This document shows positions 48,223 to 59,880 of a stretch of 64,000 nt of DNA, one piece after another. Numbering within the stretch: the first letter of the stretch is position 1; every line of letters starts with the position of its first letter. This stretch comes from Gillisella taibaishanensis. GTDB lineage: Bacteria > Pseudomonadota > Alphaproteobacteria > Rhizobiales > Rhizobiaceae. A program made the translations under genes and the position numbers. The DNA lies in assembly GCF_001938985.1 (NCBI RefSeq), contig NZ_MKIN01000022.1:1-64000 (forward strand), read 5' to 3'. Under the pieces are notes generated by a model, which saw only the letters and a list, made by a program, of their open reading frames with translations, was not told the origin of the DNA and ran no database searches.

Positions 48223-50049
48223 TCAAAATGGCCCGCCATAGCTCTCTGGCCCGCTCGGAAACGGCTCTTCATGATAGCGCGCTGGCGGCCCGCTCTGCGG
48301 CACGTCTGGCACATTCGCTAGGGAAATACCGCGATAAAGAACGATCCCAGACGTCCGGTCCTTGGCAAACTTCTTGCCCATTTCCCGCCCAAACGCAGTC
48401 ACGTTCATGGGCTTGCCGCCTTGGTCGATGGTGAAATCGCAATAGGCCTGATACAGCACCTTGCCTTCGACAGGATCTGCGCTCTCATTTTTGACCACAC
48501 ACCGCGCCACGAAGGCAGCCGTGCGGTCCATGTCATCGCGATATTGCTGTGTGGCGACTTTGACGGCCTCAGGAATGACCAGCCCTTCCCGCAGATAGAT
48601 GAAAACGCCTTCGATCAGCCAGTTCAGAATACCCGAATGTTCTGGCACGAACGACTGCACAACCTCTTCGAAGTCGCGCCGGTCCTCGACAGCAATCTGG
48701 CGCGGCCAATGGACAACAGCCATTCGCCGCCAGATACCATCATCCGTACCGCTGATCTTCGGATAGCCGTTCCCACTCATCATCGCGATGAACAACGGCT
48801 GGAAATCCATATATCCGGAAAACAGATCGCGCGCCGTGACGGTTTCCCCGCCTGTCAGTTCCTTCACCAGGTTCTCGCGCAGATCCTCACCCTCGGGCAA
48901 CTCCTTCACTCGCAACAACCGTTTTCCATACAGGCGGGCAACATCAGGGCTAGCACTTCCGGACGACCCGCCCTCACCGATCAAGCTGCTCGATGGCAGT
49001 GTCACCGAGGCATCGCCGATGATCCGGCAGAGCGTTTCCATGTAGACCGACTTGCCATTGGCGCCGTTTCCGTAATGGAAGAACAGATATTGCACCGATA
49101 CGCCGAGCAAACTGAGACCAGAACTAACCTGGACCAAGCGCCGGACCGATTCATCCGGTAATTTGCTATTGAGAAACGCATCCCATTGAGGGCATTTCGC
49201 CTTCGGATCATAGCGAACCGGGACGACATGCGTGATCAAGTCCTTGCGTCGATGGCCTGGAATGACCACGAGCTTGGCGTCGGTGCACACCTGCAGGTAT
49301 TCCGGCGCATCAGGCGTCTCCTCGACACTCTTGTGGCGCGCATTCTTCTTCCGGGTCATGGTCCGCTCGAACCGCAATGTGGCGTTCTTCACCGCGACCA
49401 TCCACTTGTCGGCGTTGAAATCGTCAGGCGATTTCATGATGTGCGGCGAGAGGCATTCCAGCATGGCATTCAGCCGGGCAACGTTTTTCGAGGTGACGGC
49501 ATGGTTCAGCCGCTTCGCGACCCGCTTTCCATGAGACTCTGACGCAGCCTGCGCCGCCGATACCAGCTTACGCTCCTCGGCATCACGCTCGCTCTCTTTC
49601 TTGGCCAGTGCATCCTTAGCGCTATCGATCAGGAACTGCTCAAATTCGTTCGGCTTGATATATTTGATTTCCGCAGCGATCCGGCTACCGAGGCGCTGCG
49701 CAATGGCCATTGCTTTGGGCTTACCATTGGCAACATCCCAGTGGCTGCCAGTCCAAACCGCATAGAGCGGCGTTTTCGCCTTCTCTTGCGCGATGACGGT
49801 CATATCGTCGCCAAAGTGCAACCGCAGGCGCGTAGCATTATCGGTGTCGGAATGGTCCAGCTCCGCGCAGAATTCAACGACAGCGTCATCAGGATCGCTA
49901 TCACCAGCCAAAGCGGCAGGGGCATCACCCAAAGGGTCTTCAGGGGTTTCGGGGTTTGGCGCATAACCCTGACGCTGGGCAGCCGCCATCTGCAAGATCT
50001 GATGAACTTCCTGAGGCAGATCCGGCTTTTTGGGATCAGTCATTCTCAT
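48223..50049 (-). CDS. P4-type primase/helicase (D5-like, superfamily 3)
   Basis: The product is 608 residues from the ATG at 50049 (GGAG 4 bases upstream); 50043 is an alternative. Helicase motifs are YGNGANGKS (Walker A, 327-334), a Walker B region around VKELTGGETVTARDLFSGYM and FIAMMSGNGYPKISGTDDGI, with an R finger-like IWRRMAVVHWPRQI. The N-terminal 250 residues are helical and lack primase residues; priming is likely supplied by the upstream gene. It should unwind the phage origin, which may be the array just downstream. Its start overlaps the primase gene. Confidence 0.85.
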   Translation of the reverse strand: MRMTDPKKPDLPQEVHQILQMAAAQRQGYAPNPETPEDPLGDAPAALAGDSDPDDAVVEFCAELDHSDTDNATRLRLHFGDDMTVIAQEKAKTPLYAVWTGSHWDVANGKPKAMAIAQRLGSRIAAEIKYIKPNEFEQFLIDSAKDALAKKESERDAEERKLVSAAQAASESHGKRVAKRLNHAVTSKNVARLNAMLECLSPHIMKSPDDFNADKWMVAVKNATLRFERTMTRKKNARHKSVEETPDAPEYLQVCTDAKLVVIPGHRRKDLITHVVPVRYDPKAKCPQWDAFLNSKLPDESVRRLVQVSSGLSLLGVSVQYLFFHYGNGANGKSVYMETLCRIIGDASVTLPSSSLIGEGGSSGSASPDVARLYGKRLLRVKELPEGEDLRENLVKELTGGETVTARDLFSGYMDFQPLFIAMMSGNGYPKISGTDDGIWRRMAVVHWPRQIAVEDRRDFEEVVQSFVPEHSGILNWLIEGVFIYLREGLVIPEAVKVATQQYRDDMDRTAAFVARCVVKNESADPVEGKVLYQAYCDFTIDQGGKPMNVTAFGREMGKKFAKDRTSGIVLYRGISLANVPDVPQSGPPARYHEEPFPSGPESYGGPF

Positions 50050-51349
50050 CGCACTCCAAAAAGGCGGGCAACTCTCTACCCGAGAGGGCCCAGTGCCTAA
50101 CGCCATCAGCGAAGGCATCCGAAAAATCCGTGCCTTCCGGCGGGTAGACGATCTGGATGTCGAGCCCGGGCCGCTCCAGCCGCGCGGCCATGCGGGCGAG
50201 GCAGGCGGCGGTCTGGACCGGCTCGCTATCGCCATCGGCCAGCACCAGCAGCGTTTTCACATGCGCCGGCACCTGCATGGCATCATCGGGCGCCTGATCC
50301 GGCTTCGGAACCGGCCCCTGCACTTTCACGGATCGGGCGCGGCCGAGCTTGTCGAGCGTCTTGAGCGTTGGGTGAACGAAATCCGAGGCCGGATCACGCG
50401 GCCCCGCCAGATTGCCGATATCGCCGGCGGCCAGATAGAAGGTATCGTCGCGCCAGCCTTCCGGCCCGGCCCACGCTGCGGGGTTTTCAATCCCCTCGCC
50501 TACAACCCAGCGATCGGCATCAGGGCTGCCGAAGACAGGCAGGAACGACCCCCGCTTGGCGCCGTGCATTTTCTTCGACGATAGGGGTTTGCCTTCGGCA
50601 TCGATCAGCATCGGCCGGAATTTCGGCTTGTTGGTCAGATCGATCCAGATCTGTTGGCTGCCGGTGATCCGCCCCTCGAGATTGACGAAGGGCACCGACA
50701 GCGCCGGTCCGACATAAAGAGACACAGGCCTGCGAAACTCGTCCTCACCATGGTAATAGGTGGCACGAGGCAGATAACGGATATGGTCGAACACGCCATC
50801 ATGCGGCCAGAAGCCGGTGCGAAACCGCAGGTAACGGCGGACCAGCGCATAGCCTTCTGCCGGCCGCTGGCCGGCTGCCATGCAATCCAGCGCATTCAGC
50901 CAAAGGCCTCGGCCGAGATTGATCGCCTTCTGGCGCTCCTTTTCAACCTTCTCCTCACGCCGCGCATTGTCGGCCTGCGCCTTGGCCCGGAATTCTGCCG
51001 TGCGCTGCTCGCGGGCCGCCCGCTCTTCATCCGTCTCTTGCTCGCCTTCGGCAGGCACCACCTCGCCCAGCGCATCGGCACAGGCCAGCAGAAATTCCGC
51101 TCGTGTCCGCAGGTTATAGCCCCGCCAGTGGGCAGCAAGGCCGATACCGTCGCGCCCACCGCCACAGCTGCGGCAATTGAAGACATTCTTGGACAGATTG
51201 ACGGAAAACCGGTCCTTCCCGCCACAACGCGGGCACGGCCCCTGATATTCGCCGCGATCCGGGGCTCGCAGTCCGATGCGCCCGGCCGCTTCCGAAACAG
51301 TGATGGTTTTCGCGCGCTCGATAAAGTCGTTGATGATGGGGCTGGTCAT
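50036..51349 (-). CDS. DNA primase, CHC2 zinc finger plus toprim
   Basis: A 437-residue protein. A zinc finger (C39-x2-C42 and C59-x2-C62 in CPRCGGKDRFSVN and FNCRSCGGG) is typical of DnaG-like primases. A toprim-like part follows (RWVVGEGIENPAAWAG, then KTLLVLADGDSEPVQTA), which carries the acidic metal-binding residues. A charged linker separates them. It makes RNA primers for phage replication. It overlaps both neighbours, so the replication genes form one coupled operon. Confidence 0.85.
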   Translation of the reverse strand: MTSPIINDFIERAKTITVSEAAGRIGLRAPDRGEYQGPCPRCGGKDRFSVNLSKNVFNCRSCGGGRDGIGLAAHWRGYNLRTRAEFLLACADALGEVVPAEGEQETDEERAAREQRTAEFRAKAQADNARREEKVEKERQKAINLGRGLWLNALDCMAAGQRPAEGYALVRRYLRFRTGFWPHDGVFDHIRYLPRATYYHGEDEFRRPVSLYVGPALSVPFVNLEGRITGSQQIWIDLTNKPKFRPMLIDAEGKPLSSKKMHGAKRGSFLPVFGSPDADRWVVGEGIENPAAWAGPEGWRDDTFYLAAGDIGNLAGPRDPASDFVHPTLKTLDKLGRARSVKVQGPVPKPDQAPDDAMQVPAHVKTLLVLADGDSEPVQTAACLARMAARLERPGLDIQIVYPPEGTDFSDAFADGVRHWALSGRELPAFLECDEND

Positions 51350-53700
51350 TCAGCAGCCTCCCGAAACTCGACAAGATCCTGGCAATTCGCCGCAACGATC
51401 GCCGCATAGGGCGGCGGCGAGACGCTATTGCCGACGCATGAGACCTGCACGCTCTTCGGGAAATCGACCCAGACCGGCGCTCCGCCGTCGCTCGGCGTCT
51501 GCCAACCGCCATCGATCACGTAATCCGGTGGGAAGCCCTGCGCATTGTAAAGCTCGCGTGGCGTCAACATGCGGATGCCGATATCGACCACGACATAGGT
51601 CTGCCCATCGATGACAAGCGTCACGAATTCCCGTTCGTCCCAGAAGCCGAAAGACCTCAAGAAGTCGGCAACCTGTCGGGCCCGGTCTTCCTGGCCAGCG
51701 GTAAAGGGCGGGACGGAAACTCCGGCCTCGACATGGCCATGACGATCTTTCGTCGTGATCGTATGGCAGGGCTCGTCTTCCGCGCCCTTCGTATCCATGC
51801 CGTAATACGAAGCCATAAATGGCGAGACATAGGCCGCGTGGCCGCCGCCAGCCGTGATCGTCTTTATCGGGACACGAAGGTCGCCCTGGCCGCCTGCGGT
51901 GTTCGACGTGTAGAGATGAGATAAATACGGCGTGACCAGTTGTGACTTATTCACACCCGCGACCACCGTTCCTGCCGGTTCTTCAACTGCATGGCCGGTA
52001 CTGTTGCCAAACTGCCGGGCAATGAAAGCGGATACCGCACCCTGCTGCGCACCGGATTGCGTCACGGTTGACATCGGCTCGTCGGCTGCCCTACCGGGAT
52101 TGATGCCACCGACGCGGCGGCTGTCATTGTTGTGCTGTGCAAGGAACGCGGCGGCCACGGCATGCTTCACGCCGCCGGCAACCACCGTGCCGAGCGGTTT
52201 CTCAATGTCCATGGTGCGAGGGGCTTGGCCTGCTCGCTCACCATAACCAGTCTGCACGAGAGTCGGGATGATGACCGAGTTCTGATCTTTGGTACTGGCG
52301 CAGATGGTGTGGTGCGGCGCTTCGACAGAGCGGACTGCACCGCCCTGTTGGGCATGCGTCAGAACCGGGGCAACGACGGAAAGCCCAGCGCCACCGGCGG
52401 TGATCGTGTGGGCTGGCTTATCCGCCTCGTTGAACGGCTTTCCGGAATTGCGCATGGTCATCAGGTGCGGCGCAAGCACACCTAAAGGCGCGCAGCCGCC
52501 TGGTCTCTTGATAAAACTGTTCGCGGTCACGGTCGACAATGGCTCATCCATTGCCGAGCCGGTCGCCCCCGAATTGAACCGGCTGATTGATGGCGCGATC
52601 AAGGAATGCCGGTTTTCCGTTGGGATAGTTGCGATCGGATCATCAAGCTCCGAAACCCGCTCCGACCGACCATCCATGTGGCTATAGTAGGAGGCCAGAT
52701 GCGGGGAGACGACAGCATGCGATATGCCGCCACTGGTCACGGTGCCCATCGGGTCTTCGATCGAATATTCGCGCCGGCCCCCACTGTAGCCATGGGCCAC
52801 CGACACCAAAAACGGCCGCTCGGCATCGAGAACATAGCGCTTCATACCCCGCGCCACCCGCGCCATCGTCGCATCGGCAAGCGGACGAACGGCCCGCAGG
52901 CGATGCTTGGTGAAGATGTTGGCGGCGGTATCGAAGATCGACGGGCACGGAAGCGACCAATCGATGCATTCCGCAGCCGTGCGCCATGGCAGCTTCTTGC
53001 CAGCGATCACATCGGGATCATCAGGCGCGCCATGCGTCGGCTCTGGCCACACGATCGGCTTGCCGTCGAACCGGATCACCAGGAACAGCCGCTTGCGGAT
53101 GGTCGGTGCGCCAAAGTCACAGGCCCTGATTTCCCGGAACTCCATCTTGCCGCCGAGCTTCTTGATTGCCTTGCTCCACGCGGCAAAGGTTTCGCCGCGG
53201 CGTTCCGGATCCGGCATCAGGCCCTTGTGGGTCTGCACCAGCGGTCCCCAATCCTTCCATTCCTCGACATTTTCCATGGTGACGACGTCGACCTTGCCGC
53301 CGCTTTTCTGGATGCGCTCGATCCATCCCGGAATGATCCAGGCGAGATCGCGGATATTCCGCTCGACAGGTTTGCCGCCCTTGGCCTTGGAGAAGTGCTT
53401 GCAATCGGGGCTGAAATGCATCAGCCCGATATGCTTGCCGCGCATGTGGTCGAGCGGATCGACCCGATAGACATTTTCCGAAAGGTGAAGCGTCTCTGGA
53501 TGGTTGGCTGCATGCAGCGCCAGCGCTGCCGGGTTGTGGTTGATGGCGATATCCGGCGAGCGGCCAAGCGCCATTTCGATGCCAGTCGACGCGCCGCCGC
53601 CACCGGCGAAGCTGTCGACGATCATGGGTCGACCGGCAGTCAATGCGGGGGTAGAGGTCGAAGCCAGGAAGTCATCCGGCAAAAAGCTCATATTCATCAC
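51346..53700 (-). CDS. DNA (cytosine-5) methyltransferase with ten internal repeats
   Basis: A 784-residue protein. Motif I is DSFAGGGGASTGIEMALG (29-46), motif IV FSPDCKHFS with Cys 100 as nucleophile (SPDC instead of the usual PPC), motif VI ENV (143-145), and C-terminal motifs QGFPPDY (721) and GNSVSPP (758). Between residues about 316 and 660 a unit like DEPxxTVTAGGxHAxVxP occurs ten times. Ordinary enzymes carry it once, near the target-recognition region. The protein is therefore about twice the usual length. It may protect phage DNA from host restriction. It overlaps the primase gene. Confidence 0.9.
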   Translation of the reverse strand: MMNMSFLPDDFLASTSTPALTAGRPMIVDSFAGGGGASTGIEMALGRSPDIAINHNPAALALHAANHPETLHLSENVYRVDPLDHMRGKHIGLMHFSPDCKHFSKAKGGKPVERNIRDLAWIIPGWIERIQKSGGKVDVVTMENVEEWKDWGPLVQTHKGLMPDPERRGETFAAWSKAIKKLGGKMEFREIRACDFGAPTIRKRLFLVIRFDGKPIVWPEPTHGAPDDPDVIAGKKLPWRTAAECIDWSLPCPSIFDTAANIFTKHRLRAVRPLADATMARVARGMKRYVLDAERPFLVSVAHGYSGGRREYSIEDPMGTVTSGGISHAVVSPHLASYYSHMDGRSERVSELDDPIATIPTENRHSLIAPSISRFNSGATGSAMDEPLSTVTANSFIKRPGGCAPLGVLAPHLMTMRNSGKPFNEADKPAHTITAGGAGLSVVAPVLTHAQQGGAVRSVEAPHHTICASTKDQNSVIIPTLVQTGYGERAGQAPRTMDIEKPLGTVVAGGVKHAVAAAFLAQHNNDSRRVGGINPGRAADEPMSTVTQSGAQQGAVSAFIARQFGNSTGHAVEEPAGTVVAGVNKSQLVTPYLSHLYTSNTAGGQGDLRVPIKTITAGGGHAAYVSPFMASYYGMDTKGAEDEPCHTITTKDRHGHVEAGVSVPPFTAGQEDRARQVADFLRSFGFWDEREFVTLVIDGQTYVVVDIGIRMLTPRELYNAQGFPPDYVIDGGWQTPSDGGAPVWVDFPKSVQVSCVGNSVSPPPYAAIVAANCQDLVEFREAAE

Positions 53701-53996
53701 ACCATCTCCCCACGCAATTCGCGCAATTCCTTGAACCCGATTCTCCGCAGCCGCCCGTGCGCCAGCAGGCTTTGCGCCAGATCTTTCAGCCGCACGTCGG
53801 CTCGGCCAAACAGGGTAAAATCGATCAGGCAGGGCGTGCCCTCATGCCAGCCGCGCAGGCCTTCGGGATCGGTAATCACCCGAAGCGCCCGGCCATCGCA
53901 GAGGCGACCGCGTGGCACCTGCCAGGCGTCCAATGTCTTTGCCGCCGCTTCACGGCTCGGCGCGATGATCAGGGTGATTTTCTGTTTTTCACGCAT
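53697..53996 (-). CDS. Hypothetical phage protein
   Basis: The product is 99 residues from the ATG that overlaps the previous stop. It begins KQKITLIIAPSREAAAKTLD and has an alpha-beta pattern (CDGRALRVITDPEGLRGWHE, LIDFTLFGRADVRLKDLAQS). No known family. It is translated between the winged-helix protein and the methyltransferase and overlaps both. Confidence 0.6.
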   Translation of the reverse strand: MREKQKITLIIAPSREAAAKTLDAWQVPRGRLCDGRALRVITDPEGLRGWHEGTPCLIDFTLFGRADVRLKDLAQSLLAHGRLRRIGFKELRELRGEMV

Positions 53997-54495
53997 CGGC
54001 GGCCACCGATATGATGGTGGCGAAGGCAGCGCGACCGGCCTCTGTGGCAACCCACGTGCTTTGGCGCGGGCCTTTGCCGACGCGCAGGCATTTGATAAAG
54101 GCGTAGGCCTTCAGCGTATCGAGCAGCCAGCGCGCCGACCCGCTCGTAATGCCGGCTTGCCGCTCCAGGTCCGCATAGGTCATGGTCACCGGACCATCGG
54201 CAACACAAAACACGGAAAGCAGCTTGCGGGCCGGGTCCGACAGATCGCCGTCATCAGATCTCGCTGGCAAGTTCCGCTCTTTCTGATCCGCAAGAAAGAC
54301 CTGGTGGTGCTGATTGCACAGAGCCTCGAGCATCTGGATCGGCTGGCCCGTCATCTCCTCCATGGACTGTTTCGAGAGCCCGCGCTCGCGCAGCATACGT
54401 GCCAGAAGGCTCTTGGTCGGATCGTCGAGGTCGGCGAAACTGGCAGGCGTGATGAAAGCCGGTGTCTTATGGCTGAACAAGGAAACGGATGTCAT
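53989..54495 (-). CDS. Winged-helix DNA-binding phage protein
   Basis: The product is 168 residues from the ATG with GAGGTGG upstream; a longer frame has no such site. The C-terminal half (TMTYADLERQAGITSGSARW, LLDTLKAYAFIKCLRVGKGP then RQSTWVATEAGRAAF) is a winged helix like those of MarR-type or replication-initiator proteins. The position in the replication operon suggests a regulator or replication accessory. The ligand is unknown. Confidence 0.6.
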   Translation of the reverse strand: MTSVSLFSHKTPAFITPASFADLDDPTKSLLARMLRERGLSKQSMEEMTGQPIQMLEALCNQHHQVFLADQKERNLPARSDDGDLSDPARKLLSVFCVADGPVTMTYADLERQAGITSGSARWLLDTLKAYAFIKCLRVGKGPRQSTWVATEAGRAAFATIISVAADA

Positions 54496-54899
54496 AACCA
54501 CCTCGATTGTCTGGAGTGTGCGGAAGAAGAGGGAGGAGACGCCGCCCGGGCAGCGGGAGGCGCATGATCCTGCCTGTCGGCAAGGGGTGCGGGCTCGGCA
54601 GGCGGCGCGCACGCCTCAGCCCATCGCTTGTCGTGCCAGGCCTCGAGCGCGGCGACATGAACGGCATAGTCCATATCGAACTCCCGCCGCAGCCGCTCTT
54701 CGCGCCAGACCTGTTCGAACAAACCGGGCGAGCCGTACCAACGGTTGATCACCTTCGCCTTGGTGGGGATTGCCGCGATCTCTGCGACATCGCTGACGAT
54801 CTTTGCCCATGCAGGCACAAGCTCGGGGTCGCAGCGGAATAGATCGATTGCCGCTTGTTGCGGATTATCGGTGCAGACGAAGAGGCCAGCCGGCTTCAT
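54492..54899 (-). CDS. Hypothetical phage protein
   Basis: A 135-residue protein with a helical N-terminal part (QQAAIDLFRCDPELVPAWAK, VREERL-like EERLRREFDMDYAVHVAALE) and a low-complexity Ala/Pro/Ser tail. It overlaps both neighbours. Not recognised. Confidence 0.6.
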   Translation of the reverse strand: MKPAGLFVCTDNPQQAAIDLFRCDPELVPAWAKIVSDVAEIAAIPTKAKVINRWYGSPGLFEQVWREERLRREFDMDYAVHVAALEAWHDKRWAEACAPPAEPAPLADRQDHAPPAARAASPPSSSAHSRQSRWL

Positions 54900-57505
54900 T
54901 GCGCCGCCTCCATCAGGTCGAAAAGGCTGGGCATGGCCATTTCCCGCGCTGCCGCCTCGACATATTTGCAGCCGTCGAGGAAATAGGCGGGGTTAAGCTC
55001 GGTCGCGATGCCTTTGCGGCCAAGCTTGATCGCCCGATATGGCACCGTCATCAGCCCGCCAAACGGGTCGAACACGGTCTCGCCCGGCTCGGTATATTGG
55101 CCGATGGCCCGGTCGACGATGTCGAATTGCAGCGGGCAGAGATGCATTTCCTTTCCGGCCTGCGCCTGCAGCGTGTTCATCGACAGCATGCGGGCGACAT
55201 CGGTCCAGACATCGTCATGCTTGGAATGCGGCGGCAACAGCATGAAGGTCGAGGGCAGCATGCCCCGCTCTTCCAGCACTTCGGCAATCTTCACGTGATG
55301 CTCGAAATCGTAGACAGATTCGAGGGAGTAGCGTTTCCAGAGCTTGAAGATCTGATGATGCTCCAGCCCGGCCAGATCCTCGATCGGCAACAGCCGGTCG
55401 CCAGAGCTCGGCATATAGCCATGGGCATCGAGCTGCCACCGCGCCCGGGAATAGCCGGTCTCGTTCGACCATTCCCCGGCTTCATTGCTCCATTGCCGCT
55501 TCTCTTTCTTCACCGGCCGGTCGGCATAACCGTTATCGGCCGAACTTGGCGGCTTGCGAAAAATCAGCAGATATTCCGGCATGCCGTTGCCCATGCGGCT
55601 GCCATCCTTGCATTGCTCGGACCAGCCGAGCCGATAGGTCTGGTTGTTTTCCCGCACCACATCGGTCGTGATCGTCTTGCGCGAGAGGAAGGCGAAGCCA
55701 TGCTTCTGGAATGCCCTGATACAATCGTCGGAAAACGGATAGACGCTCTGGAACCCGAGGCCCGTCATGCCGCCGGGCACGATCCGGTCTTTCACATGGA
55801 TGGCGGCGATCCGGCCCGGCGAAAGCACGCGCAACAGCTCGGGAATGAGAAAGTCCATCTGTTTCCAGAAGTGGTTATTGTCATCCGTGTGGCCGAAATC
55901 GCAGTAATTCGGGCTGTACTCGTATTGCGTCGAGAACGGGATAGAGGTCACGATCAGGTCGACGCTGTCAGCCGCCATGGCCTGCGTTTCCAGGACGCAG
56001 TCATTGTTGATCAGCCGGTAGCTGTCGCCAATCGCCTCTATCCGGTCGACGCCAAGCGAGCGTTGCAGCGTGGCGGCCATGGCGGCGGCCGACAGGCCGT
56101 ATTCCTTGATGATCTGGGTCATGATTGCTCTTTGCTCTTCGTGCCGCCGCCATTTCGCTTCCAGCACATCGCGCACCGGCCGCTCGGCCTCGGTGAAAAT
56201 GAGGTCGAGGCGCACGCGCCGCGTCTGCAGGAATCGGTAAATGCGGTGGACCGCCTGGATGAAATCGTTGAATTTGAAGCCGATCCCGAGGAAGATCGCC
56301 CAGCTGCAGAACGGCTGGAGATTGCAGCCCGAGCCCAGCATGGAGGGCTTGCCCGCCAGTTCGCGAATACGTCCCTCGGAAAAGCCGATGATCGAGGCTT
56401 CGCGCATTTCCAGATCCTGCGCGCCGTAGACGGTTACGGCATCCGGGATGACAGCCTCGATCGCCAGCCGCTCGGCTTCGAGATCGTGCCAGATCAGCCG
56501 ATGCTCATCCGGCGCCAGCGCCCGCAGATCCATCAGCTTGGCAATGCGCGCCGGCAGGCTGTCGCGCTTTTCCCGCGCGGCGTCCGAGAGTGATGCCGAG
56601 GCGTTGCGCAGCAATCGCCCCTGCCCGTTCTTTTCCGCGCCGGCCTGTCCGTGATCGCTCGGCACCTCATGCCAATGCACATCCATAGGCGGCAGATCAT
56701 ACCCGTCATCGGAAAAACCGAGATCGCTCGGCCGCTCGATAAACAGGCCCCAGCTTGCCACCCACAGCCAGAATTCACGCTGCTTGTGCGGATGGATCGT
56801 CAAGCTGTCGGCTTTTTCGGAATTGCGTTTGAAGAACCTGGTCTTTGCCTGCCCCACATCCATGATTTCGAGGAAGGCGGAATAGGCCAGCAGCTCGATA
56901 AACTCGTTCGGGCTCGGCGTGGCGGTCGCCACGAACTTGAAGCGGATCCCGTCAAACAGCCGCATGAACTCGCGGAATGTCTTCGAGCCGCCAAAGCCTC
57001 GCAGACAGGACGCCTCGTCGAGGCTTGCGACATCGAACAGGCGCGGGTCGATCTTGCCATCGCGCACCGGCTCATAGTTGGTCACATGCAGGCCGGTCGC
57101 CTGCGCCTCGGCCATGGAGCGGATGAAGGTAAGCCCATAAGCCCGATCGGGCCGCAGCGCCCGCCAGGCCTTCAACTCCGAGCGCTGCACATCGGTGATC
57201 CGGGGATGCGCGCCGGTTTCCAGCATCAAAGCATCCTTGCGGAATTCCTGGCGCACGCCGAGTGGCGCCACGATCAGGCCGCGACCGCCAAAGCGCGACA
57301 GCACCAGCCGCAGCACTTCCAGCTGAATGATGGTCTTGCCCAGCCCGAAGGCCGCGAAGATGGCGCGCCGGCCGCCAGCGCAAGCCCAGATGACAACCGC
57401 TTTCTGATGCGGCAGCAAAAGCGGATTGACGTCCTCGACGGCAACAGCAAACCCGCCTTCCGCCGCCATCTGGATCTTATCCTTGACAAACTCGACGTAG
57501 TTCAT
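54896..57505 (-). CDS. Helicase-DNA methyltransferase fusion
   Basis: The product has 869 residues. The N-terminal half is a superfamily-2 helicase: Walker A GLGKT (54-58), SLDEAS (162-166), VATATPSP (192-199) and QAVHRIYRFLQ (417-427). The C-terminal half is an amino-methyltransferase: TSIPFS (520-525, an unusual version of the DPPY/SPPF catalytic motif) and DPFGGLMT with ATELNPAYF (813 on). The long frame upstream is ignored because the family start is MNYVEF. Such fusions occur in alphaproteobacterial phages and may methylate adenine or cytosine while moving on DNA. It overlaps gcrA. Confidence 0.85.
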   Translation of the reverse strand: MNYVEFVKDKIQMAAEGGFAVAVEDVNPLLLPHQKAVVIWACAGGRRAIFAAFGLGKTIIQLEVLRLVLSRFGGRGLIVAPLGVRQEFRKDALMLETGAHPRITDVQRSELKAWRALRPDRAYGLTFIRSMAEAQATGLHVTNYEPVRDGKIDPRLFDVASLDEASCLRGFGGSKTFREFMRLFDGIRFKFVATATPSPNEFIELLAYSAFLEIMDVGQAKTRFFKRNSEKADSLTIHPHKQREFWLWVASWGLFIERPSDLGFSDDGYDLPPMDVHWHEVPSDHGQAGAEKNGQGRLLRNASASLSDAAREKRDSLPARIAKLMDLRALAPDEHRLIWHDLEAERLAIEAVIPDAVTVYGAQDLEMREASIIGFSEGRIRELAGKPSMLGSGCNLQPFCSWAIFLGIGFKFNDFIQAVHRIYRFLQTRRVRLDLIFTEAERPVRDVLEAKWRRHEEQRAIMTQIIKEYGLSAAAMAATLQRSLGVDRIEAIGDSYRLINNDCVLETQAMAADSVDLIVTSIPFSTQYEYSPNYCDFGHTDDNNHFWKQMDFLIPELLRVLSPGRIAAIHVKDRIVPGGMTGLGFQSVYPFSDDCIRAFQKHGFAFLSRKTITTDVVRENNQTYRLGWSEQCKDGSRMGNGMPEYLLIFRKPPSSADNGYADRPVKKEKRQWSNEAGEWSNETGYSRARWQLDAHGYMPSSGDRLLPIEDLAGLEHHQIFKLWKRYSLESVYDFEHHVKIAEVLEERGMLPSTFMLLPPHSKHDDVWTDVARMLSMNTLQAQAGKEMHLCPLQFDIVDRAIGQYTEPGETVFDPFGGLMTVPYRAIKLGRKGIATELNPAYFLDGCKYVEAAAREMAMPSLFDLMEAAQ

Positions 57506-58062
57506 GCCGCCCTCGCCCGGAAAACCAGCTTCTGATGCGCGGGGCACCACGATTGCAGATCGTCGACAGCAGCACCGCAGCAAGGCGACTTCGGCCCGGC
57601 GACGTCATCGAAGGGAACCAGCGGGAATTTGCATTGGCCCGAGGTCAGATCGGCAAAGGCCACCGGCTCGACATGCTCCAGCCGGAACGCATTAAGATTG
57701 CGTTTCGGTGCGAGACCGCCCGTCACCCGCCCATCAACGATGGTCTGCACGAACACCGGCAGTTTGGGCGCTGGCTTCGGTTCCGGTTTCGGTGCTGCCG
57801 GCTTTGGCGCACGGGGCTTTGCTGGCGCGATTGGCTTGGCAGTGACCGCCACCTTGACCTGGCCCGTCCCTTTCCGGGATGGCGGCTGAGTGCCAACGCC
57901 ACGGGCTGGAAAGAGGTCACGGCGCCGACCAGCAATACCGAGAACGGAACTCCGCGACACACCGAGAGTGCTGCTGATTTCAGTCGCCGAATGCCCCTCT
58001 TTCCAAAGGTCAGCGGCCTTTTCCAGCTTCTCGCCGGTCCAGACGAATGCCACGCCGCTCAT
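57502..58062 (-). CDS. gcrA: GcrA-family transcription regulator
   Basis: A 186-residue protein. The N-terminus (FVWTGEKLEKAADLWKEGHS, ATEISSTLGVSRSSVLGIAG) is the GcrA helix-turn-helix, followed by a Pro/Lys/Ala-rich linker and a C-terminal GQCKFPLVPF...CCGAAVDDLQSWCPAHQKL with conserved Cys/His. GcrA works with RNA polymerase at promoters whose GANTC sites are methylated by CcrM and drives cell-cycle genes in Caulobacter. The phage copy may steer host transcription or use methylation by its neighbours. It overlaps the helicase-methyltransferase start by 4 bases. Confidence 0.85.
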   Translation of the reverse strand: MSGVAFVWTGEKLEKAADLWKEGHSATEISSTLGVSRSSVLGIAGRRRDLFPARGVGTQPPSRKGTGQVKVAVTAKPIAPAKPRAPKPAAPKPEPKPAPKLPVFVQTIVDGRVTGGLAPKRNLNAFRLEHVEPVAFADLTSGQCKFPLVPFDDVAGPKSPCCGAAVDDLQSWCPAHQKLVFRARAA

Positions 58063-58250
58063 CGAAAGAACCTCCCGATCTCAGCGCAGCGGATGCAGTG
58101 CTTTTCGATAACCTCAGCTGTGGTGCGCACCGTGCCGCATTCCTTGCACTGACGCTTCTCGAGCGACGGGCTCGGCGCAAAGGCGGCAATATTGATTTCG
58201 CGGTCATGGCGACGGCGGGCGGCGTAGAGCTTTTCCTCGACAGGTGTCAT
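58059..58250 (-). CDS. Small zinc-ribbon phage protein
   Basis: A 63-residue protein with C-x2-C...C-x2-C (QCKECGTVRTTAEVIEKHCI then RCAEIGRF), a zinc ribbon. It overlaps GcrA and the CII-like gene by 4 bases each. The function is unknown; a nucleic-acid or protein contact is likely. Confidence 0.75.
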   Translation of the reverse strand: MTPVEEKLYAARRRHDREINIAAFAPSPSLEKRQCKECGTVRTTAEVIEKHCIRCAEIGRFFR

Positions 58251-58711
58251 ACGCCTGCCCCCGCCTTGCTCATGATCTCACGGATCTTTTTGATCAGCTT
58301 CTCGCCTTCGCGGCCGATGTCACGAGCCTCGCCCGTCGAAATGTGCCCATCGTCCAGGGCCTCGACGACGACGGTTTTCAGCGCATTGGACACGCTGTCC
58401 ATGCTCAAGAGGTCCATCAGGTTGAGCTTTGCGGCCGCAGCCGCAGGCTCATCCTTCACCAGCCGATAGCCCTGCAACCGGGCCAGCTGCTCGGTAATGA
58501 CGGGAGAACCGGCTTCGAGATCAGCCTCAAGGACGATATCGAGCGGCATGAACTTTTCCGCATTGTCATCGGAGGTGCTGGCGTAGTTCGACAGCGGCGC
58601 CTTGCCGACACGAGTGATGTGCTGAAAACTCTCAGCGGTGCCCGCCATCTGGATGGCTCGGCGGGTTGCGCCCTTCAGGGCAGCAGCCTGTTCTCTGTTA
58701 ATTGCGCGCAC
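58247..58711 (-). CDS. CII-like phage regulatory protein (Phage_CP76 type)
   Basis: A 154-residue protein from a GTG with GAGGAGGG 6 bases upstream. The pattern (REQAAALKGATRRAIQMAGT, ITRVGKAPLSNYASTSDDNA, EKFMPLDIVLEADLEAGSPV, TEQLARLQGYRLV) matches the CII/CP76 family seen downstream of cro in P2/Mu-like and rhizobial phages. Lambda CII activates repressor and integrase promoters. It is the first gene after the terminator that separates it from the cro-like gene. Confidence 0.75.
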   Translation of the reverse strand: MRAINREQAAALKGATRRAIQMAGTAESFQHITRVGKAPLSNYASTSDDNAEKFMPLDIVLEADLEAGSPVITEQLARLQGYRLVKDEPAAAAAKLNLMDLLSMDSVSNALKTVVVEALDDGHISTGEARDIGREGEKLIKKIREIMSKAGAGV

Positions 58712-58949: not shown

Positions 58950-59183
58950 TCATTCGACAGCCTCCAAACCGACCGCATGTTTCGCGAGCCAGGCAAAAGA
59001 AATCTCTTCGATTCCTTGCGCAGCGGAAGCATCAACAACGCGAGCCCAATGCTTAGGCGCGATACTTCCACGTCGCCGCATCTGACGAGCAGCCTCATAG
59101 CCGCAGCCAACCGCTGACGCGAAATCCGCGATTGTCGGCCATTGGTCAATAAGCTCGGAAATTGTCGAAACCGTCTTGCTCAT
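58950..59183 (-). CDS. Cro-like repressor (HTH)
   Basis: The product is 77 residues from ATG 59183. The HTH pattern TISELIDQWPTIADFASAVG, then GYEAARQMRRRGSIAPKHWA, has the small Cro/YdaS type recognition helix. It lies head-to-head with the repressor gene. A -10-like TACAGT with TTGCGG 17 bases upstream ends only about 6 bases before the ATG, and no ribosome site is seen, so the mRNA may be leaderless. Confidence 0.8.
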   Translation of the reverse strand: MSKTVSTISELIDQWPTIADFASAVGCGYEAARQMRRRGSIAPKHWARVVDASAAQGIEEISFAWLAKHAVGLEAVE

Positions 59184-59192
59184 ACATGGACT

Positions 59193-59263
59193 GTACAAAA
59201 TGTACGACACTTCCGCAACCCTATTTCGTACACCTTGGACGACAAAAATCGTTCATTGTGTAC
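59193..59263. promoter_or_regulatory. Three 13-bp operators between cro-like and repressor genes
   Basis: GTACA-AAA-TGTAC (59193-59205, perfect), GTACA-CCT-TGGAC (59228-59240) and GTTCA-TTG-TGTAC (59251-59263) share the pattern GTACA-N3-TGTAC. The first overlaps the probable cro promoter and the third ends 3 bases before the repressor ATG. Three related operators in a divergent immunity region match the lambda OR design. Two more copies lie at 59931-59969. Confidence 0.8.
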
Positions 59264-59265
59264 GC

Positions 59266-59880
59266 ATGAATGAACCGAAAGACAGATTGCAGATCGCTAG
59301 AGCGAAATCAGGCTACAAATCGCCGACAGAAGCGGCGAGAGCGTTTCCGCGCCACATCAATGCGAACACCATGATAAGTCATGAAAATGGCAACCGGGCG
59401 ATATCGCGCAAAGCCGCCGCAAAATATGCCGATCTGTTCGGTGTTGACGCCGGCTGGATCCTTTATGGCGAGAATGACGCAACAGAGTCTTCCGACATCG
59501 ACGTGCCACTTCTCTCGCTGGTCAGCGCGGGCAATCTCCGCGACCAATCCATGATCACTGCCGACAACATAATCAGACACATAAAGGTTGGCGAGCTGCC
59601 CAGGGGCGATTGGGTTGCACTACAGGTAGAAGGCGATTCTATGGATCGCATTGCTCCAGAAGGAGCGATCATTCTTGTAGACCGAGCCGACGATCAACTC
59701 ATTGATGGCAGGTTTTATATTTTTGCACTGGCGACAGGCGAGGCTACCTTTAAGAGATGGCGCAGATCGCCTGCCCGCCTTCAGCCATACTCAACAAACC
59801 CTGATCATATGTCAACGCCAGCAAGCCTTGATGACTTGTATGTCTTCGGCCGCGTGAAGCGGGTTATTCACGACATCTAA
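59266..59880 (+). CDS. CI/LexA-type phage repressor (S24 peptidase)
   Basis: The product is 204 residues from ATG 59266, chosen because the operator ends just before it and the HTH starts there; the longer frame would run through operators. N-terminal HTH (LQIARAKSGYKSPTEAARAF, about 8-60) is followed by the self-cleaving domain: Ala88-Gly89 cut site (LLSLVSAGN), Ser125 (VEGDSMDRIAPEG) and Lys163 (GEATFKRWRR). RecA activated by DNA damage should trigger self-cleavage and induction. No ribosome site is visible, so a leaderless mRNA is possible, as with lambda cI. Confidence 0.9.
   Translation: MNEPKDRLQIARAKSGYKSPTEAARAFPRHINANTMISHENGNRAISRKAAAKYADLFGVDAGWILYGENDATESSDIDVPLLSLVSAGNLRDQSMITADNIIRHIKVGELPRGDWVALQVEGDSMDRIAPEGAIILVDRADDQLIDGRFYIFALATGEATFKRWRRSPARLQPYSTNPDHMSTPASLDDLYVFGRVKRVIHDI

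Follow-up and report, generated by a model that had tools for sequence, protein, structure and literature searches.

Does a GcrA homolog encoded directly beside a DNA methyltransferase on a prophage form with it a module that times transcription by DNA methylation? The question is raised by a stretch of 64,000 nucleotides from Gillisella taibaishanensis (contig NZ_MKIN01000022.1, positions 1 to 64,000; here called the window), part of a genome of 5.4 Mb on 28 contigs. The IMG/VR contig IMGVR_UViG_2738541332_000004 (46,646 bases) is identical over the GcrA gene and places the prophage at approximately 18314-64959. The original prediction held that this phage GcrA overlaps a methyltransferase by 4 bases, stands in one operon with a second methylase, and serves the phage to time its own or host genes by methylation. 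The overlap was confirmed, ATGA being shared at 57502-57505. We found that the regulator, GcrA, and the methylase occupy adjacent, separately exchangeable slots of the operon, an arrangement that is new here. At the sequence level, and for GANTC, a methylation-timed mechanism for this phage is not supported.

To determine whether GcrA and the methyltransferase are linked, we compared related loci (designated by L numbers) that were collected from different anchor genes. GcrA was present in 14 of 148 distinct loci anchored on the methyltransferase, some of them short, with two further weak matches, and in the closest methyltransferase clade it occurred in 8 of 25 rows. On a methyltransferase tree of 75 rows, at least eight changes are needed to account for 11 rows labelled with GcrA, one of them weak. 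Anchoring on the phiLM21_p027-type methyltransferase yielded a GcrA-like open reading frame (ORF) within 8 kilobases (kb) in 19 of 80 IMG/VR loci, three of these ORFs scoring below 34 bits and two lying on the other strand. With GcrA itself as the anchor (four IMG/VR scans), a non-C5 methyltransferase occurred within 1.2 kb downstream in 19 of 21 contigs and within 500 base pairs (bp) in 17, in a set that included the query phages and two contigs that look like the same virus. This count looked strong for a dedicated linkage, but the sample is biased, since the four query GcrAs came from methyltransferase searches, and we therefore anchored the comparison on the primase. Of 394 family genomes, 34 had a match at E≤1e-40, including the window's own, and 35 primase regions came from other genomes. 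The 29 regions with a CII-like gene were scored, the window itself not being included, and six were dropped as no CII-like gene was found in them (L449, L458, L459, L467, L468, and L470). In the interval from the CII-like gene to the primase, a non-C5 methyltransferase was present in 7 of 13 operons with GcrA and in 11 of 16 without it (Fisher p=0.47), which is no association in this small set. In five doubtful operons without GcrA (L441, L445, L446, L466, and L472), which had been counted as positive on a motif or on short matches, Pfam confirmed a PF01555 methyltransferase. Eleven operons were without a methyltransferase; the Pfam scan, which covered ten ORFs, detected none in eight ORFs, taken from five of the six such operons that bear GcrA, nor in two ORFs of L454. 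The dedicated linkage was thus not confirmed: the putative writer and reader do not co-occur above chance in this operon family, and nothing indicates that either gene, GcrA or the methyltransferase, depends on the other. The predicted pairing does recur in other phages, but its members assort independently in the primase-anchored operons.

The operon lies on the minus strand, divergent from an S24 repressor gene, and its gene order is that of the following lines from the CII-like gene to the primase/helicase:

18314-64000: part of the prophage inside the window (IMGVR_UViG_2738541332_000004; 46.6 kb in all, running past the window end)
59176-59880, plus strand: S24-type repressor, divergent from the operon (PF00717)
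58247-58711, minus strand: CII-like regulator, located upstream of the slot that GcrA fills (phrog_101, E=1.9e-14)
58059-58250, minus strand: small Cys-rich CxxC..CxxC protein of 63 amino acids (ORF; a 71% identical homolog in the same place in L036)
57502-58062, minus strand: GcrA-family protein of 186 amino acids (PF07750, 46 bits; phrog_16311; alignment with 27 host GcrA proteins)
57502-57505, minus strand: ATGA shared by the GcrA stop and the methyltransferase start (read from the sequence by script)
54896-57505, minus strand: fusion of a helicase and an N6/N4 DNA methyltransferase, 869 amino acids, with TSIPF as catalytic motif (PF01555, phrog_16, phrog_67)
54492-54899, minus strand: protein of 135 amino acids, backbone gene o135 (phrog_37497; conserved in relatives)
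53989-54495, minus strand: putative winged-helix protein (HTH_34, weak, under the curated cut-off)
53697-53996, minus strand: protein of 99 amino acids, backbone gene o99 (phrog_27832; conserved in relatives)
51346-53697, minus strand: C5-cytosine DNA methyltransferase of 783 amino acids (PF00145, phrog_116)
50036-51349, minus strand: DNA primase (phrog_510)
48223-50043, minus strand: DNA primase/helicase (phrog_1156)

As judged from strand and spacing, these genes probably form one transcript. Five junctions of the operon share 4 nucleotides (58247-58250, 58059-58062, 57502-57505, 54896-54899, and 51346-51349), and the overlap between GcrA and the methyltransferase is therefore ordinary for this operon. 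GcrA and two methylases do stand in one operon, as proposed, and this operon is tightly packed; the second methylase is the C5 enzyme, which lies outside the interval 54896-58062 covered by the prediction. The neighbouring gene does carry a methyltransferase domain, within a helicase-methylase fusion that had gone unmentioned.

Exchange was observed in both slots. The A. vitis prophage L036 (methyltransferase 84%) shares with the window operon the CII-like and 63-amino-acid genes upstream of the regulator slot and carries in the slot another gene, with a weak match to Rrf2, a helix-turn-helix (HTH) family, that is under the cut-off. In Rhizobium phage RR1-A and in L039 the slot is filled by a GNAT acetyltransferase gene (above cut-off), and the corresponding genes of L037 and L119 are near-identical in sequence to that of RR1-A. 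A search of 26 chosen records for GcrA gave matches in eight and none in the whole records of RR1-A and of the sister locus L117 (86%). The methylase slot of L244 contains, instead of the helicase fusion, a phiLM21_p027-type methyltransferase (69% identical to p027), while GcrA (38%), o135, o99, and both primases are retained; this type of methyltransferase also stands straight after GcrA in L334. In L333 and L336, GcrA is directly followed by a PF01555 methyltransferase without a helicase; these two enzymes are 45% identical to each other and distant relatives of the methyltransferase domain of the fusion. No methyltransferase directly follows GcrA in L338, L437, and L439, the last of which has GcrA and then o135.

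The window GcrA belongs to the GcrA family according to its PF07750 profile match (46 bits, cut-off 26.9) and also matches phrog_16311 (E=5e-18). Its sequence is laid out as an HTH (approximately residues 8-48), a linker rich in Pro, Ala, and Lys, and a C-terminal Cys/Cys/Cys/His domain, and thus has both the N-terminal HTH and a C-terminal domain of the sigma-interacting type with the conserved residues. For Caulobacter GcrA, residues 1-45 are described as DNA binding and residues 108-173 as sigma binding (PMC7403470). In an alignment of 18 phage and 27 host GcrA proteins, in which a few phage rows are partial or weak, all 18 phage rows retain the three Cys of the C-terminal motif, and 17 of them the His. 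Among the host-invariant residues of helix 3, Arg47 and Arg56 are present in all 18 phage proteins, Asn48 in 7, Lys53 in 6, and His55 in 4. The recognition helix of the window protein carries Asn48Ser, Lys53Ile, and His55Gly and thus departs from the host-invariant pattern, and the HTH core is retained (two Trp, Arg47, Gly52, and Arg56, host numbering). The changes in the recognition helix would bear on DNA specificity, not on fold-family membership. Identity between the window GcrA and that of its own host is 30.6%, and a quick tree has a branch (support 80) that separates off all 27 host proteins; the phage protein is therefore not a recent capture. G101, a genome of the same family, and a record titled Chelativorans share the same GcrA; for the window GcrA, tblastn in the phage collection retrieved a single record, RHph_X2_30.

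Several GcrA homologs deviate in architecture or in named host. In L338:5952-6635 and L437:7770-8471 an additional HTH precedes the GcrA domain (HTH matches at approximately 8-45 and 80-114), and L003:7562-8206 has two PF07750 matches. Homologs also occur in phages named for Microcystis and Synechococcus (L212 and L213). To our knowledge, GcrA is otherwise known from alphaproteobacteria, and the named hosts of these two may therefore be wrong.

The ORF downstream of GcrA at 54896-57505 matches PF01555 (E=2.7e-14), phrog_16 'DNA helicase' (E=1.3e-117), and phrog_67 'DNA methyltransferase'; the match is full-length and the motifs of helicase and methylase are both present, identifying a phrog_16-type helicase-methylase. 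Using tblastn, homologs were detected in 308 phage records, 233 of them with at least 80% coverage; by host, the 308 records were from phages of Mycobacterium (146), Flavobacterium (85), Arthrobacter (27), Pseudomonas (22), and others. Homologs in genomes include, among 80 matches listed and according to record titles, Bacteroidota, Actinomycetota, and a metagenome-assembled genome of Thermoplasmata, while the named carriers of close homologs are Agrobacterium, Rhizobium, and Neorhizobium. As the enzyme is common in phages of hosts that are not alphaproteobacteria, its function cannot depend on GcrA in general. It has a weak sequence match in the PDB to CcrM (6pbd, E=8e-4, approximately 65 residues) and no significant similarity to the GANTC-specific phiLM21_p027, of which the window contains no homolog at E≤1e-3.

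The catalytic motif of this family is S-[I/V]-P-F in 147 of 148 aligned helicase-methyltransferases and S-W-P-F in one. The usual motif of N6/N4 methyltransferases is [D/N/S]-P-P-[Y/F/W], against which the second position of the family motif is unusual. In L430, L433, and L435 the helicase-methyltransferase behind GcrA matches as several separate pieces, as would be expected if the gene were broken in some prophages.

The reading that we prefer, at roughly even odds, is that the phage GcrA acts as an early sigma-70 co-activator with a DNA specificity of its own, encoded beside a methylase for self-protection. Once the S24 repressor is lifted, the GcrA homolog would be made early, together with the replication genes; its conserved C-terminal domain would bind the housekeeping sigma factor of the host, and its altered HTH would direct RNA polymerase to promoters that it selects itself, phage or host. 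The helicase-methylase, like the C5 methylase, would mainly modify the DNA of the phage, serving its protection or replication, and would do so with no need of GcrA. The adjacency of the two genes would follow from the layout of the operon, in which a slot for a small regulator lies next to a slot for a methylase and each is filled without regard to the other. This reading builds on the domains retained in the GcrA sequence, its divergence from host GcrA, the swaps seen in both slots, the independent assortment of GcrA and methyltransferase, and the lack of a GANTC signature at promoters.

Some observations weigh against this reading. The very next gene was a methyltransferase in 11 of the 21 GcrA-anchored contigs, and the test on 29 operons takes no account of phylogeny. 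Congruent small groups in the GcrA and methyltransferase trees show that some pairs of GcrA and methyltransferase have travelled together; these are L137/L120, L038/L121/L126, and the window, which is nearest to L118 in the GcrA tree and shares a starred group of four rows in the methyltransferase tree. The AlphaFold model of the window GcrA is confident for the HTH and of low confidence for the C-terminal half, and a Foldseek search with it gave no match at E≤0.001, for which reasons sigma binding is argued here from the amino acid sequence.

A first alternative, which we consider unlikely, is that the methylase of the phage sets a methylation mark, at GANTC or elsewhere, and that the coupled GcrA reads it and thereby times phage or host promoters. 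It would fit the spacing of GcrA and the helicase-methyltransferase, which ranged from a 4-nucleotide overlap to a 1-nucleotide gap in all eight adjacent pairs examined, and the succession of several methyltransferase types after GcrA, among them the phiLM21_p027-type in L244 and L334. PMC5537653 reports that phiLM21_p027, citing its reference 14, and two further sinorhizobial prophage methyltransferases methylate GANTC. L196, moreover, has GcrA (38 bits) on one strand with a p027 homolog of 78% identity and a C5 methyltransferase (65% identical to that of the window), all within approximately 5 kb.

Against it stand, besides the independent assortment of the two genes, the distribution of GANTC, the lack of a p027 homolog in the window, the changed recognition helix, and the spread of the helicase-methyltransferase beyond alphaproteobacterial hosts. 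GANTC occurs 56 times in the window, compared to 329 expected from shuffles. The 46.6 kb of the prophage contain 26 sites, for an observed/expected ratio of 0.15 from composition and 0.25 from a Markov model, and the host has 133 in 160 kb, sampled as eight 20-kb stretches (0.23 and 0.41). By the same two measures, GANTC is also avoided where GcrA is missing, in part of RR1-A (0.16 and 0.22) and in L117 (0.07 and 0.12), but not in part of the GcrA-bearing RHph_X2_30 (1.04 and 0.81), and its avoidance therefore does not track GcrA. Of the 25 prophage sites inside the window, the gene caller placed five outside genes (21133, 59010, 59485, 59635, and 61479); the last four fall inside ORFs that the caller had missed, leaving 1 of 25 outside genes. 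In the host stretches, 39 of 133 sites were outside genes according to the caller, without such correction. The promoter scan proposed with the original prediction gave no enrichment: within 500 bp upstream of the CII-like gene, GANTC was present in 14 of 37 loci with GcrA and in 14 of 42 without it (p=0.81), related loci among these 79 not being independent and the GcrA-bearing hit L116 being this phage, with site 59010 in a coding ORF. For GANTC, the only target examined, no signature at phage promoters was thus observed, and GANTC timing of these promoters was rejected at the sensitivity given by the window and the 79 loci. In the phage genomes that PMC9437464 analyzed, predicted GcrA sites are described as having no positional asymmetry.

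An equally improbable alternative is that the phage GcrA mimics that of the host, acting on host promoters methylated by CcrM and pushing the cell to a replication-competent state. A host-directed role was proposed for the GcrA of phiCbK (PMC3556154). The host genome encodes its own GcrA and a single protein with a RAMA domain, which we take for CcrM. Genes annotated for replication are found close to GcrA in the window as well as in RHph_Y1_10, MD18, and phiCbK. The substitutions at host-invariant recognition residues and the low identity to the GcrA of the host argue against such mimicry. Somewhat less probable still is a portable epigenetic transcription switch built by alphaproteobacterial phages, in which a re-specified phage GcrA would read the mark of the methylase in the neighbouring slot and the code would be changed by replacing one of at least three methylase types with another. 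That GcrA is a decoy, tying up sigma-70 through its C-terminal domain and silencing the transcription that depends on host GcrA, would suit a Cys/His motif far better conserved than the recognition helix, but is very unlikely given the HTH core still present in the window protein, which a pure decoy would not need.

The natural swaps on both sides, namely operons without GcrA (RR1-A, L036, and L117) and GcrA followed by a methylase from a published GANTC-specific family (L244), open a way to test the long-standing idea that GcrA is exploited by phages. They raise the question whether a phage GcrA follows the mark of its own methylase, that of the host, or none; in the last case it would be an example of a phage sigma-70 co-activator with a changed DNA target.

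Phage GcrA and phage GANTC methylases are already known. GcrA on phages is described in PMC3556154, PMC6630229, PMC11309003, and PMC9437464, and has been in print since 2012 (PMC3556154), and phage GANTC methyltransferases are treated in PMC5537653, so that the original remark on a mechanism not commonly described in phages is half right; a direct coupling of GcrA and a methyltransferase was not found in a literature search of partial scope. Members of the GcrA family are likewise encoded by the alphaproteobacterial phages phiCbK (gp222), Atu_ph08, RHph_Y1_10, and RHph_X2_30. The phiCbK gene adjoins a gene for a DNA polymerase palm domain, and that of RHph_Y1_10 is near a DNA replication gene. 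Unlike in the window, no methylase is annotated directly beside GcrA in seven annotated phage records, many of the neighbours being hypothetical; RHph_Y1_10 has a DNA methylase approximately 2 kb away, and in Atu_ph08 GcrA is gp5 and a C5 methylase gp7 (PMC6630229). The phiLM21_p027-type enzymes resemble the window methylase in being phage orphan methyltransferases near a replication module and, in L244, in filling the slot after GcrA, but differ from it in sequence as stated above. RR1-A carries a full-length phrog_16 homolog (77%) with no GcrA match. Compared to the GcrA-CcrM system of the host, the window GcrA shares the domain order but forms a separate lineage. Binding of host GcrA is described as methylation-dependent (PMC3667746).

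A second phage GcrA lineage was found in 80 phiLM21-like loci. A NusG-like gene lies on the same strand in 79 of these, whereas 38, many of them incomplete, have no modelled methyltransferase type on that strand; this lineage is therefore tied to the NusG-like gene rather than to a methyltransferase. The NusG-like gene of L196 is NusG according to Pfam. In phiLM21, which has no GcrA match, a gene annotated as DnaA precedes the NusG-like gene. In phiLM21-like prophages (L196:9756-10793, L221:10785-11833, and L202:19398-20389), either GcrA or, in phiLM21, the DnaA-annotated gene stands just before the NusG-like gene, as if host cell-cycle factors alternated at this position. A table of phiLM21-like prophage ORFs gives a count of 5 for 'GcrA cell cycle regulator' (PMC12429752). 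An alignment-based search, in which the matches were mostly of host-type GcrA by score, also gave a phage-type match in G054. The idea of a methylase as writer and GcrA as reader would be better tested in L196 and L244 than in the window.

Two minor observations concern the remainder of the operon. ARAGORN predicted a tRNA-Ser(CGA) at 54591-54681, which was taken as false, as it lies inside the conserved coding gene o135 and Rfam at gathering thresholds gave nothing. The C5 methylase at 51346-53697 has a long insert between its two Pfam pieces, in which 'P..T[IV]T....H' stretches seem recurrent by eye, two of them fitting the strict pattern.

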